Part shown: in pieces, positions 2,190 through 9,343 of the stretch
How positions within the stretch are numbered: the stretch's first letter is position 1
How the letters are laid out: the number at the start of each line of letters is the position of its first letter
IMG/VR virus record: IMGVR_UViG_3300021957_000330
Coordinates: 1 to 22,840 of that record
DNA: 22,840 nt
Direction: 5' to 3' (one strand)
From: a virus
Translations under genes and position numbers: made by a program
Notes under the pieces: model-generated
What the model saw: the letters and a program-made list of their open reading frames with translations, nothing else
The model's database searches: none
What the model was told of the DNA's origin: nothing

Positions 2190-2531
2190 ATGGTCGATTT
2201 AAATGAAAATACAAATGTCAATATACCTTTAAGGAATTTATTGGCATTAATATTTGCAGTAGCTGTTTCTGTTACTGGATACGTGAATCTGACCTCGCGA
2301 ATTACTCAATTAGAACACAGTAGACAAATTACTAACGTCGAGGTATCAATGAATAGTGAATTCAGAGTCAAATGGCCTCGCGGTGAGTTAGGCGCTTTGC
2401 CAGCTGATGCTAATCAGGATCTTAGATTAAACTATATCGAGAAACGCTTAGAAATGGTTGATGGGCTTTCCCGCGAATTAGAAATTGAAGTTCATAAGGC
2501 TAAAGTTGAATCTGAAGTTATAGATAATTAA
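2190..2531 (+). CDS. Plus-strand single-span membrane protein
   Basis: A 113-residue protein and the only convincing plus-strand gene here. From ATG 2190 it has a short polar N-terminus, one membrane span at about 13-33 (NLLALIFAVAVSVTGYV), a region containing FRVKWPRGELGALPADA, and a charged helical C-terminus (about 75-110) likely to form a coiled coil. This layout resembles small membrane-anchored or virion-associated proteins of marine T4-like phages; I recognise the style but not a named family. The frame is open upstream to 2079, but those residues are low-complexity and overlap the divergent intergenic region. The stop is three bases from the tRNA-Ile2 gene, which is transcribed towards it. 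Confidence 0.7.
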   Translation: MVDLNENTNVNIPLRNLLALIFAVAVSVTGYVNLTSRITQLEHSRQITNVEVSMNSEFRVKWPRGELGALPADANQDLRLNYIEKRLEMVDGLSRELEIEVHKAKVESEVIDN

Positions 2532-2534
2532 AAA

Positions 2535-2609
2535 TGGTGGGCCCTGAGAATTACGATATCTCGACCTAACGATTATGAGTCGTTTGCTCTTCCTCTGAGC
2601 TAAGGGCCC
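2535..2609 (-). tRNA. tRNA-Ile2(CAU)
   Basis: A 75-base cloverleaf on the minus strand. Acceptor stem GGGCCCT/AGGGCCC is perfect and followed by A and an encoded CCA. D stem GCTC/GAGC and anticodon stem AACGA/TCGTT are perfect, with loop CTCATAA and anticodon CAT. The body closely resembles bacterial minor tRNA-Ile2, whose C34 becomes lysidine to read AUA, more than methionine tRNAs. The T arm is unusual: GAGAT-ATCGTAA-TTCTC has a T-T closing position, and A54/T58 in place of T54/A58. Whether it is charged and functional is uncertain, but three perfect arms argue for selection. Confidence 0.85.
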
Positions 2610-2610
2610 T

Positions 2611-3180
2611 AAAGTGTGAGGGAGTCGACCGCTACGCAGTCCTTATCCTCATTATCAACCCCCGCCGTCGCAGAGGAATTACAAACTCTATCAATAGTTA
2701 CCCAATAGATGACGTAGAGAAGTTACCTTGTATGACAAATGATCGATCTAACAGCATGCCGCTCAATCAACGCCTATTGCACAAGCCTCATATCCTAGTA
2801 CGTTCCACACTACATTTTCTATAAACACCAGACAAACCATACGGTTCTACTCATGTGTTAATGCCCCGTTATTGGAATGGTGGATCATTACCCAATACTT
2901 TTTCAAAAGCATTGGAACTATTAAATTTATCAGCAGTGGGTAATAGCCTACATTACTTACACTGCTGGATTCGTTAGCGTGCTTTCTTCACGATACCGAT
3001 TTGTGCGATCTATTATAGAGCGGTATAGTCTCTACTTTTACTCCTACATTTGTGCATCAATCAAAGGCTACGCTGATGAGTGGCATTAGGGATCAAGTTA
3101 AGAAATGCGACCTTGCTGCTGGCGATTCCGTTACATCAGAATCTTTAAGATAGGATTACCTATCACCAGCAAAACGCAAT
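2611..3180 (-). ncRNA. Candidate large structured RNA
   Basis: No plausible reading frame exists in these 570 bases, yet they are full of stable hairpins. On the minus strand: a three-way junction with outer stem TGCTGG/CCAGCA (3117-3175 region) enclosing GATAGG-TAAT-CCTATC (3149-3164) and GATTC/GAATC; ATACCG/CGGTAT (about 2991-3029); CAGCAGTG/CACTGCTG with inner GTAAT/ATTAC (2931-2967); a 10-base-pair hairpin with tetraloop TGAA at 2892-2915; AACC-GTAT-GGTT near 2840; and GACTGC-GTA-GCGGTC at 2627-2641. Several pairs are G-U on the minus strand but would be A-C on the plus strand, pointing to minus-strand transcription. It begins right after the stop of the 3486 gene and ends at the tRNA-Ile2. 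Length and tRNA proximity recall the large phage RNAs ROOL and GOLLD, but I cannot confirm family membership. Confidence 0.6.
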
Positions 3181-3486
3181 TTAGCCGATTGTTGGTAAGT
3201 CGATCTTAGTTGTATCGCGGGCTAGTTGAAGAGTGCCTCCTTCAACATCAACGACCTTGAACCCTTTACCGAGAAGTTCTTTGACATGAGTCTTATTGTA
3301 TGTAATGGCAAAGATGATATTGGTTAAGATCGGAGCAATACCGAGTAGAACTAGCTGGATGAGCACCGACTTCCAATCACCCCGACAGATTGCAGGGATT
3401 GGACAGAAGAAGAGCGTTGTCCATGAGATGCCGATTGGGGCTGTGACTTTGATACCAGTATTTGGGTTTTGCATGTGTAGTTTCAT
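3181..3486 (-). CDS. Small two-span membrane protein
   Basis: A 101-residue protein. A polar N-terminus is followed by a hydrophobic hairpin: about 20-34 (SWTTLFFCPIPAICRG) and 40-63 (VLIQLVLLGIAPILTNIIFAITYN). A soluble tail carries HVKELLGKGFKVVDVEG. The layout resembles short bacterial and phage membrane proteins in which a two-helix hairpin precedes a cytosolic tail; no function is known to me. The start at 3486 has no Shine-Dalgarno sequence and sits behind an unusual CAA-repeat leader; ATG 3474 is an alternative. A promoter at 3708-3736 would give a leader of about 215 bases and could also supply the structured RNA and tRNA-Ile2 downstream. Confidence 0.65.
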   Translation of the reverse strand: MKLHMQNPNTGIKVTAPIGISWTTLFFCPIPAICRGDWKSVLIQLVLLGIAPILTNIIFAITYNKTHVKELLGKGFKVVDVEGGTLQLARDTTKIDLPTIG

Positions 3487-3533: not shown

Positions 3534-3707
3534 GTATTAAAAAGTTGTCGTAGGTTTGTTTTAACGATGGCTACGTCCACCGAACTTATTAAAGAACAAA
3601 AAATTCTTTCTTGCCCCTCTCAACCGAAGTTGGATTGGACACCATTTTTACAAGACGTTTAACTCTAATTTGATATTTGGCTTAGAGAGCCATAACTGTA
3701 TTCTACT

Positions 3708-3736
3708 ATTATACCATACTTTATGGCAATTGTAAA
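3708..3736 (-). promoter_or_regulatory. Extended -10 promoter
   Basis: TTTACA (3731-3736) and TATAAT (3708-3713) with a 17-base spacer ending in TGG. The -35 lies inside the end of the 41-residue gene. It would drive the 3181-3486 gene and, by read-through, the structured RNA and tRNA-Ile2. Confidence 0.7.
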
Positions 3737-3846
3737 TAGTTATTTATGTTTTTTACTAGTATTGCTAATAAGCCAATTACAGCTGCACCAAATAGTGCCA
3801 TGAGTATCATGCTCATTGCTTCTTCTGCCTTATACGGATCTTTCAT
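3721..3846 (-). CDS. 41-residue membrane peptide
   Basis: A 41-residue product starting MKDPYKAEEAMSM with one strongly hydrophobic segment at about 14-31 (ILMALFGAAVIGLLAILV) and a short polar tail. The ATG follows the TAA of the upstream gene by two bases (TAATTATG). Operon-like packing, a clean amphipathic-to-membrane layout and lack of overlap with other genes support it. Function unknown; it could be a small inner-membrane protein acting on the host envelope. Confidence 0.55.
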   Translation of the reverse strand: MKDPYKAEEAMSMILMALFGAAVIGLLAILVKNINNYLQLP

Positions 3847-4820: not shown

Positions 4821-5114
4821 TTATGCAACTTTAGTGAGAAGTGAAGGAGACACGGACCAGCGTGCTGATCCTCCAACTACAATCTTAATCGTTTTTACAT
4901 TTACTTTTTGAATTACACCTTCGACGATTCGTCCTACTTTGTCGTGGAATGTTACAGTTTCACCTACGTGAAATTGAGAAGCTTCTTGAGCGCTGAGGGA
5001 CTTATTCCGCGCACTGTGTAATTTTGCGATTAGATTTAGATCGTTATCGTTCATTTTGCTGAAAAGATTTTCGAGCATTTGGCGTTCAGCTAGAGTGATT
5101 GTGTATTTTGTCAT
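4821..5114 (-). CDS. Hypothetical protein, SH3/KOW-like tail
   Basis: A 97-residue protein. The first half is helical (LAERQMLENLFSKMNDNDLNLI). The second half reads as a small beta barrel: FHVGETVTFHDKVGRIVEGVIQKVNVKTIKI (48-78), with the turn pattern of KOW or Tudor-like SH3 folds that bind RNA or protein. That reading is from pattern only. It begins two bases after a tiny basic ORF (TAATTATG) and is followed by the 114-residue gene. Confidence 0.65.
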   Translation of the reverse strand: MTKYTITLAERQMLENLFSKMNDNDLNLIAKLHSARNKSLSAQEASQFHVGETVTFHDKVGRIVEGVIQKVNVKTIKIVVGGSARWSVSPSLLTKVA

Positions 5115-5116
5115 AA

Positions 5117-5203
5117 TTATATAGTTTTGAGTTTAAACTTTAAGAGTATTCGTTGAAAAAGTGGAGTCTTACGTTGAAGGCGCGCTTTATAGCGATTAGT
5201 CAT
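5117..5203 (-). CDS. Possible 28-residue basic peptide
   Basis: MTNRYKARLQRKTPLFQRIL and eight more residues, very basic, with a TAATTATG junction to the next gene identical to that at 3846-3851. The packed position suggests a translated leader peptide or micro-gene, but no Shine-Dalgarno sequence is visible and the length gives little statistical support. Confidence 0.3.
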   Translation of the reverse strand: MTNRYKARLQRKTPLFQRILLKFKLKTI

Positions 5204-5213
5204 ATTACGTAAA

Positions 5214-5309
5214 TTAAGCAGGGATTGCAAGGCAGAGGCCGATGTATGCTACGAGGCCGACGATGAGACCGATTGTGGTACTTGCGAGGATTTCTTTTAA
5301 TGTTTTCAT
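5214..5309 (-). CDS. 31-residue membrane peptide
   Basis: MKTLKEILAS followed by a single hydrophobic span (about 11-30, TTIGLIVGLVAYIGLCLAI). It is the first gene behind a well-formed promoter (5334-5362) whose -10 is bracketed by an inverted repeat, which supports it being expressed. Function unknown; the layout resembles short phage inner-membrane peptides. Confidence 0.5.
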   Translation of the reverse strand: MKTLKEILASTTIGLIVGLVAYIGLCLAIPA

Positions 5310-6837: not shown

Positions 6838-6866
6838 ATTATACCACAGTTTAGTTGTTTTGTACA
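6838..6866 (-). promoter_or_regulatory. Promoter of the MazG-like/PrimPol-like operon
   Basis: TGTACA (6861-6866), 17-base spacer ending TGG, TATAAT (6838-6843). It shares the extended AGGGTGTACAAAACA block with the polymerase promoter. Distance to the ATG is nine bases. Confidence 0.8.
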
Positions 6867-6868
6867 CC

Positions 6869-9343
6869 CTAAAAGAAGAACTGCTCAAGATCTGCTCGAG
6901 GTTCCGCTGACCACCCAATAGCATCAAGTATGATATTCATCGGATCAAGAAATGTTTTCGTAAATTGCAAATCATAGTCGATGTATTTATGGAGCTCTAA
7001 TTCTTCAGGGAGAAAGTCAGGGAACGCAACCACATTCTGTTGAATAGAATTGGGAATAAGCAAATACAAGAATTTTATCTTATCACCATTCTGAATAAGC
7101 GCGAATTGTTTATCCAATCCTCTCGCTTTCAGATGGTGGTTATACAATAGCGAACCTCTAACATGAATAGGTGTACCTTTAGTAAAGATGGTGCCAGGTG
7201 TAGCGTATTGTGTAATACTAGTCACACCTCGAGGGAACGCGATTTTATCAGGAGAAAGCGTTTTAAAATATTCTTTAAAGAGCGCGATTGCTTCTTGAGT
7301 CTTTTCTTCGCTGGACGTTACGATGACTTTGAACAAGTTTCTCATTGCATCGCGGCATGGCATAGGTGTAGAGGACTTTACGGATTCAAGACCCATGATC
7401 TTAATCTTAGGTTCAGCATATTGGACACCTTCATTATTATGCACGTTGAGTATGTAGCGTTTCTTTGCAGTCCAAATACCACGATCAGCAATAGCTTCCC
7501 TCTTCATAACCATACGATTTGAGTAAGCGTTAGTTCGTTCAGCGAATTGATCGAAGGCTTTGGCCAACATAGGTTCAATCGCTTTAGAACCAAACTCATC
7601 AAGAAAAGCAACAGGGTTATTAGGCTTGAACTTTTCAATTACGTCATTAACACCGATGTAAAGAGAATCAGTATCCATCGCGATAACACGATCTTTAGAT
7701 TCGCCGACAAAGTCATTAAGAAAGTTGTTGACGTTTGTTTCAGCATATTTGATAACCTCTTGGCCCGTCAGCGTAATGGCTGATGCAACACGAAGGTCGA
7801 AGTACCGAAAGTATTTATTGCCCATTGCGCCGTATAGACTATTAAGGAGAATCTTAATCGCGGTCTGGAGTGTTTCTAGGCGGGCGACTTGCGCAGAGGT
7901 TTGATTATATTCGGTGCGTCGGCGTTTAGATATCGTTTCAAGTTTTGTTTTTGCTTGAAGCATGTCGCCTTTAACAGTCACGCGTTTGCTATACAATTCT
8001 TCAACAATTTCTGGGATGATACCTTTCTTATCTTTACGAAAGACAGCGCCATTAGATGCTGTTGCACCGACTGCATTAGTGACACCAATCAATGTTTCAG
8101 GTGACATGTTATATTGGACAATTAAGTTGGGATACAGAGAATTCAAGTCAAAGGACATTACCCAATCGTGCATTCCAACATGCGGGTCTTTTACATAGCC
8201 GCCAGGAAACGCTGCGGTTTCTTTTATGACACTCGGCATAATAGTAATCCTTGACCGAGCTAGACGACGGAAGATAATCGAATCCCATATCGCGGTTGTA
8301 CCAAGAGTGTCTTGATAGTTTACACCTCCGAGGTATGCCATAGTCAATACCAGTGTAACAAGACCAAGTTTGTCTTCCATACGTTCGATGAGCTCGACAT
8401 CTTTGATATTGTAGTCGACGAACATTTGAAAGTTTGCGTCGTACAAATCACGCAGTGTACCAACTTCAGAGTAGTCAAGTTTCTTTTCACCCAGTACAAC
8501 ACTTGAAATGTGATTCAACGAGTACGATTCCTGATTGCCGTACGTATACGCGAACTTCTTAAAAAGTTCCATATAGTCAAGATGCTGAATACCCACGATA
8601 TCAAACGCAATTTGCTGGCGGCCTTGGACAAAGATTTCTTTACGTTCGATTTTGCGCCAAGGCGACAAGTTACGAACCTTTTCCTCGCTTAAGAGAAACG
8701 TCATGCGAGAGATCATATACGGAATGTCGAAAAAGCGTGTGTTCCAACCTGTAATAATATCAGGTGTATTATCGGGTTCAGCCCAATAATCAATGAATGC
8801 GGAAAGCATCGAAGATTCTTCAGTAAACTGACGGTATTCGATTTTAAGGTGTTTAAGTTCTGTGATTGCTTCATCGTAGGGTTTCATACCCCAAACACGA
8901 TAAGTGTCATCTTTTGAACTCTTGTAAGCAATAGTAAGAATCTGATTAACTGGATTGTCTACCTCAGGAAACCCATCTCCGTACGATGTTTCGATATCTA
9001 AAGAAGCTACATCAACTAAGTCACGGTGGTACGCGATTTCGTTAGGAAACTGATTTTGAATAAACGCAGGGACATGACGAGTGTTACCATATAAGCAAAA
9101 GTCAGGAACACCGTTATAGGACTTTTCAAATTCCTTTACCTCTTTCATTGAGCCAAACTGCAGCGGCTCGACAGGTGTGCCATCTAGAGCTTTCCAGTCA
9201 GTGGCACTTTTGTTTGACTTAAGATAAAGAGTTGGCTTGTACTTAATACGGTGACTTACTTTTTTTCCATCCGCATCATATCCGCGGTAAAGTAAGTTGT
9301 TGCCTAGTCTTTCGACGCTTGTGTAGAATCCGGTTAGTAGCAT
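6869..9343 (-). CDS. 43: DNA polymerase, family B (gp43)
   Basis: An 824-residue replicative polymerase with proofreading, homologous to T4 gp43 (898 residues). Exonuclease motifs: DIET at 116-119, NTRFFDIPY at 201-209, and YNIKD at 311-315. Polymerase motifs: SFDLNSLYP (397-405, motif A), KILLNSLYG (497-505, motif B) and MDTDSLY (556-562, motif C with the two catalytic Asp). The extreme C-terminus DLEQFFF is a probable sliding-clamp-binding peptide, in keeping with the gp45 gene nearby. It is preceded by its own promoter with TATAAT 11 bases from the ATG and no Shine-Dalgarno sequence. Unlike T4, where regA is adjacent, hsp20 and an ADP-ribosyltransferase gene separate it from regA. Confidence 0.97.
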   Translation of the reverse strand: MLLTGFYTSVERLGNNLLYRGYDADGKKVSHRIKYKPTLYLKSNKSATDWKALDGTPVEPLQFGSMKEVKEFEKSYNGVPDFCLYGNTRHVPAFIQNQFPNEIAYHRDLVDVASLDIETSYGDGFPEVDNPVNQILTIAYKSSKDDTYRVWGMKPYDEAITELKHLKIEYRQFTEESSMLSAFIDYWAEPDNTPDIITGWNTRFFDIPYMISRMTFLLSEEKVRNLSPWRKIERKEIFVQGRQQIAFDIVGIQHLDYMELFKKFAYTYGNQESYSLNHISSVVLGEKKLDYSEVGTLRDLYDANFQMFVDYNIKDVELIERMEDKLGLVTLVLTMAYLGGVNYQDTLGTTAIWDSIIFRRLARSRITIMPSVIKETAAFPGGYVKDPHVGMHDWVMSFDLNSLYPNLIVQYNMSPETLIGVTNAVGATASNGAVFRKDKKGIIPEIVEELYSKRVTVKGDMLQAKTKLETISKRRRTEYNQTSAQVARLETLQTAIKILLNSLYGAMGNKYFRYFDLRVASAITLTGQEVIKYAETNVNNFLNDFVGESKDRVIAMDTDSLYIGVNDVIEKFKPNNPVAFLDEFGSKAIEPMLAKAFDQFAERTNAYSNRMVMKREAIADRGIWTAKKRYILNVHNNEGVQYAEPKIKIMGLESVKSSTPMPCRDAMRNLFKVIVTSSEEKTQEAIALFKEYFKTLSPDKIAFPRGVTSITQYATPGTIFTKGTPIHVRGSLLYNHHLKARGLDKQFALIQNGDKIKFLYLLIPNSIQQNVVAFPDFLPEELELHKYIDYDLQFTKTFLDPMNIILDAIGWSAEPRADLEQFFF

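Follow-up and report, generated by a model that had tools for sequence, protein, structure and literature searches.

We analyzed the non-coding stretch at positions 2611–3180 of a 22.8 kb contig of a T4-like marine phage from IMG/VR (record IMGVR_UViG_3300021957_000330; its 22,840 nucleotides (nt) are termed the window). On the minus strand, the 3' part of this stretch, termed unit C (2611–2688, 78 nt), folds as a conserved pseudoknotted RNA with near-invariant joining segments, which is almost certainly an RNA structure maintained by selection. Unit C belongs to a new, uncatalogued RNA family, and from its sequence and genomic setting we infer a stable RNA that would act in trans (probability about 0.5). 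A more specific and rather unlikely proposal sees unit C as the core of a novel class of phage RNAs, trans-acting or catalytic, which fold unlike anything in Rfam, reside together with exchangeable adaptor domains in the transfer RNA (tRNA) arrays of T4-like marine viruses and perhaps act on host ribosomes or RNA processing.

An earlier note, made from the letters of the window alone, had described the stretch as non-coding, dense in hairpins and bounded by the stop of a gene and a tRNA, and this description was borne out. The stretch extends from just past the stop of a minus-strand open reading frame (ORF; 3181–3486) to 1 nt before the tRNA at 2535–2609. It contains no ORF of more than 40 amino acids (aa) in any frame, and insertions and deletions among its homologues are not multiples of three. 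A protein-coding function was thus rejected, including the hidden protein frame that the earlier note had considered. The predicted fold of the minus strand (-164 kcal/mol) is more stable than those of dinucleotide shuffles (-148.4 ± 6.3 kcal/mol; z -2.47), only one out of 100 of which was as good, and the plus strand folds less well when compared to its shuffles (z -1.57). Folding energy by itself is only moderate evidence for a structured RNA; the structure goes well beyond chance because unit C and the adjoining unit A are conserved and covary in homologues. We scanned all 4227 Rfam families, at the gathering threshold and then at E ≤ 10 in 2400–3300 of the window, where no family was found besides tRNA and weak sub-threshold noise. 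Moreover, none of the units matches Rfam in the homologues examined. The idea of a new class, rather than that of a coding region, is supported. Membership of GOLLD or ROOL, which had also been suggested, did not hold up. The GOLLD model (RF02032, not RF01998 as previously given), run alone on the window, was negative, in a setting where no control genome exceeded the cut-off and which therefore had no positive control. It also found nothing above threshold in nine homologous loci, and ROOL, covered by the scan of all Rfam families, has no match in the window or in homologous loci. The transfer-messenger RNA (tmRNA) models of ARAGORN and Rfam do not match the RNA element either. A group I intron, searched for through Rfam only, was rejected, since the helix order does not fit.

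The helices of unit C follow the order P1-hp1-P2-hp2-P1'-P2' (P1, 2685–2688/2622–2625; hp1, 2659–2676; P2, 2647–2651/2617–2621; hp2, 2627–2641). The 3' strands of P1 and P2 form one contiguous 9-mer, the hairpins lie in the loops, and the joining segments UUGUAAUU, UUGAUAA and AUAAGG are near-invariant. Complementarity of UAAGG and GUAAUUCC to 16S ribosomal RNA is close to what chance would give, and we make no claim of it. Homologues were sought in IMG/VR viral contigs, using DNA patterns built from the two best-conserved segments and then broader patterns, which led to dozens of loci. Unit C is present in 45 viral loci, and its covariance model (R1) scores 96.3 bits in the window. IMG/VR contigs are fragments and several of the 45 loci are near-duplicates; the alignment A7 comprises 34 distinct sequences, one of which is from locus L003, found on the same contig as L118. 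In a set of 28 sequences, 97.4% of the cells are paired in the unit C model, compared to 41–53% when the partners are slid. In A7 the value is 97.0%, and 15 of the 21 pairs have changed on both sides. In divergent members P1 becomes CACU/AGUG and CUCC/GGAG, and P2 becomes ACUGG/CCAGU, GUUGG/CCAAC, UGCUGA/UCAGCA and UAAGG/CCUUA. Covariation of P1 is free of fitting bias, since the model to which A7 was fitted held hp1, P2 and hp2, but not P1.

The covariation check on homologues that the earlier note had proposed was carried out with a phylogeny-aware null (FastTree topology, parsimony substitutions re-dropped on the branches, G statistic with average-product correction), a home-made procedure that was used in place of R-scape and is not identical to it. 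For unit C, 2798 pairs were tested. The P1 pair 4–75 (E 0.003, six substitutions on each side) and the hp2 pair 60–68 (E 0.027) are significant, the hp1 pair 20–32 is at the limit (E 0.05), and all pairs that lie outside the structure stay above this value. The minus strand contains G-U pairs and is thereby fixed as the sense strand, and together with the covariation these strand-specific pairs establish selection at the RNA level on the minus strand. Thus, a structured minus-strand RNA beside a tRNA, covarying in homologues, is supported.

In the window unit C is the last of four units, which are arranged 5' to 3' in the order E-D'-A-C on the minus strand. Unit A (2693–2922) is a multibranched domain closed by AAUAGUU/AACUAUU and includes a previously noted hairpin near 2892–2915 (CCAATGCTTTTGAAAAAGTATTGG). 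In its 13 homologues, 99.1% of the cells of 65 predicted pairs are paired, compared to 33–46% when slid. Only three pairs show two-sided changes, however, and the support for unit A therefore mainly stems from consistency: it is a conserved closed domain of approximately 200 nt, whose fold is consistent with the alignment rather than proven by it. Unit A of the window includes an insertion of approximately 54 nt (2814–2867), which it shares only with L118, L123 and L140. Unit D' (2931–3085), delimited by nhmmer and alignment, contains the predicted long hairpin at 2931–2967 (CAGCAGTG...CACTGCTG), ends in the hairpin CAGCAGUG...CACUGCUG and is homologous to sequences in L119/L121, L128 and L137 (nhmmer E 2e-20 to 1e-21). 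Unit E (3086–3179) contains, in its minimum free energy fold, the three-way junction that had been seen before, with a core at about 3106–3178. This core (unit positions 8–67) recurs in L155, approximately 1 kb 5' of the unit C of that locus, and differs only within a loop; all other matches among the 79 obtained in a pattern scan of the collection were judged to be coding sequence or chance. Finally, two units are known from relatives. Unit B is a hairpin with a loop pseudoknot, in which the tree-aware test supports the pairs 110–134 (E 0.003) and, in the pseudoknot, 124–153 (E 0.007), and unit D shows two-sided changes in five pairs.

According to the IMG/VR alignments, related phages carry the units singly or in different combinations. 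Unit C is found in nearly all loci, and A, B, D, D' and E are present in varying subsets: D follows C in L157, L148 has only D and C, and L146 and L153 have only C. The stretch is therefore probably a mosaic of units. Of the RNA of about 570 bases proposed in the earlier note the structured RNA stands, but not the single indivisible molecule, since the units are separated, permuted and lost in relatives. In L003, 319 nt of the region are found with 97.5% identity at another genomic position, 5' of a clamp-loader-like gene and not adjacent to a tRNA. DNA polymerase/helicase loci yielded only L003/L086 and L026 plus a remnant in L067, and a homologue search via the neighboring 101-aa ORF yielded none. 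Using blastn with the window, a unit B+C consensus, the L129 version and L177, no homologue was recovered from isolated phages, a search in which divergent members could be missed. The unit C covariance model, run on eight isolates in all, including T4, did not match Melnitz, C48C1, KVP40, two Zobellviridae and two cyanophages. Twelve pattern matches in GTDB genomes, which do not have P2/hp2 and score 13–25 bits, were judged to be chance. In L067 (1–66), a shared GCGGTCGA joins the 5' part of a tRNA-Ser-like sequence to the 3' end of unit C, and this is likely a recombination junction. A further repeated non-coding unit, 'F' (GGCCTTATGGCTGATCCCCAAAGCC...), accompanies the arrays in L123, L125, L126 and L067.

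A single convincing copy of unit C is present in each of 20 records, among them contigs of 86.9, 89.0 and 112.8 kb. In 17 of the 45 loci a tRNA starts 2–5 nt past the modelled end of unit C, always on the same strand, and in L125, L129 and L156 it lies further downstream; the tRNAs that unit C precedes include Met/Ile, Lys, Gln and Arg. The end of unit C in L117/L127 reads CACACCA-UUUUA, resembling the CCA-UUUUA ends of neighboring tRNAs. Elsewhere, unit C lies among genes of replication or nucleotide metabolism: it precedes a gp44-like clamp loader gene, separates DNA polymerase from uvsX-like genes or, in L178, stands between nrdA upstream and nrdB downstream. It also occurs past a peroxiredoxin gene, with a convergent gene on its other side. 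The single copy and the shifting gene neighbors favor a trans-acting RNA over control of one neighbor, and the fixed spacing to the tRNA points to tRNA processing as the means of release. The minus strand would yield at least one stable structured RNA, co-transcribed with phage tRNAs and set free by the ordinary processing of these tRNAs. RNase P cleavage at the tRNA 5' end would leave approximately 7 nt after P2', so that in the window the 3' end of the RNA would be defined by 5' processing of the tRNA at 2535–2609; if another tRNA precedes the RNA, 3' processing of that tRNA would free the RNA 5' end. The RNA may then act in trans: its fold would serve as a scaffold, and its invariant loops would bind a protein, the ribosome or a further RNA, with the 5' units (E, D' and A, or B and D in relatives) as optional adaptors.

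Several observations weigh against this reading. No tRNA is visible in the fetched stretch of 24 of the 45 loci, and in others it is distant, indicating that tRNA processing is not the sole route. Unit C is found close behind the stops of coding sequences (L152, L178, L159) and before a Shine-Dalgarno (SD) sequence and ATG (L152, L177), and a role in cis would fit this as well. In the tree-aware test no single P2 pair reaches significance, since P2 varies mainly in one divergent clade. Finally, the window lacks unit B, although most relatives carry it, and its copy may therefore be a derived or partial version.

Unit C could, in a reading that we consider unlikely, be a 3' module acting in cis, whose knotted end blocks 3'-to-5' exonucleases or guides the processing of upstream non-coding RNA units or messenger RNAs. 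Its location at the 3' side of varied upstream units and shortly past coding sequence stops, the contiguous 3' strand formed by P1' and P2', and its presence between convergent genes in L159/L165/L169 would all fit such a module. A general stabilizer would be expected at many 3' ends, however, rather than in one copy per record, and the long near-invariant single-stranded joins exceed the needs of a mechanical block. An intrinsic terminator was rejected as a general role, because no terminator-like site was found and tRNAs follow within 2–5 nt. A role of unit C as a riboswitch that senses a ligand or as a self-cleaving ribozyme, in either case of a new class, might be suggested by its pseudoknot with near-invariant unpaired joins and its occasional position directly 5' of an SD sequence and ATG, but appears improbable. 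Hepatitis delta virus (HDV)-like theta ribozymes also adjoin phage tRNAs (PMC10879173), but the gene downstream of unit C is not consistent, no Rfam ribozyme or riboswitch matches, and its helix order does not include the P4 and J4/2 elements of HDV-like ribozymes. A DNA-level element or debris of tRNA-array recombination (remnant tRNAs, a recombination hot spot) is already disfavored and very improbable: the strong mosaicism between loci and the tRNA-Ser/C fusion speak for it, whereas the strand-specific G-U pairs and the tree-aware covariation, which includes pseudoknot helices, require selection at the RNA level. A diverged GOLLD or ROOL RNA, to which size, tRNA neighborhood and the GOLLD-like combination of a conserved 3' and a variable 5' part (PMC12286853) would point, is already largely refuted and hardly credible, as neither model matches the window or its homologues, the modules are shuffled and unit C alone is only approximately 78 nt long.

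The DNA polymerase of the window (6869–9343) resembles those of Kyanoviridae phages, with C48C1 as the best isolate (48% aa). Directly 3' of unit C, the minus-strand tRNA at 2535–2609 (ARAGORN; Rfam RF00005, 53.4 bits) has a CAU anticodon and is Ile2-like, an identity we presume from its resemblance to E. coli ileX. It has an odd T loop (AUCGUAA compared to UUCRANY), and the same tRNA is present in L116. A plus-strand ORF (2079–2531, phrog_20984) converges on it, in a window whose prevailing genes are on the minus strand, and another minus-strand tRNA is found at 1391–1465. Directly 5' of unit E, the minus-strand ORF at 3181–3486 encodes 101 aa (phrog_4915, unknown function). Further 5' of this ORF and the RNA, the minus strand carries a promoter-like TTTACA-17-TATAAT (3708–3736; 11 of 12 matches, TG extension), a possible transcript start. 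The 41 bp around it (3707–3747) recur with approximately 79–86% identity in L005, L006, L059, L068 and L079–L081, and are likely a conserved phage promoter. Among the tRNA arrays of other loci, those of L116 and L131 contain, at 6961–7043 and 1845–1927, respectively, a tRNA with a four-base anticodon (ccat) according to ARAGORN, and that of L129 also carries, at 4895–5291 and 6839–6875, a separate tmRNA, which has a long tag (GNGNVIDFNAEMQRLAQEGEILLAQEASLLAA), and a match to abiF RNA.

Structured RNAs beside phage tRNAs, such as T4 RNAs C and D, GOLLD and ROOL, are still without known function. The family described here adds a compact, well-supported core of approximately 78 nt, a size that suits mutational and structural work. 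Its modular design reveals the indispensable part, and T4-like marine phages swap these non-coding RNA modules as they swap genes. ROOL RNAs are comparable in length to the whole stretch at 2611–3180. They are also encoded by phages near tRNA islands (PMC12286853), but the stretch is modular rather than one ornate fold and has no Rfam match. With GOLLD, a large structured phage RNA near tRNAs (PMC12286853), it shares the layout only, a conserved 3' and a variable 5' part; no model matches, and the conserved part is a 78-nt pseudoknot able to stand alone. HDV-like theta ribozymes are pseudoknotted and sit only a few nt away from tRNAs of phages (PMC10879173), as does unit C, which, however, does not have the P4 and J4/2 of their nested double pseudoknot and has no match in Rfam. 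The unit C model did not match T4; in the T4 tRNA region, searched with this model only and with filters off, the best score was 8.3 bits (E 0.67). RNAs C and D of T4 are small RNAs of its tRNA region, whose function is unknown (PMC3014915), and were detected on Northern blots and classed as late RNAs (PMC9697503). Their sequence and order are different and homology is not detectable, yet they would be the closest functional parallel: like these stable RNAs (species 1 and 2), the RNA described here lies in the tRNA region of a T4-type phage, and by analogy we propose that it is stable as well.
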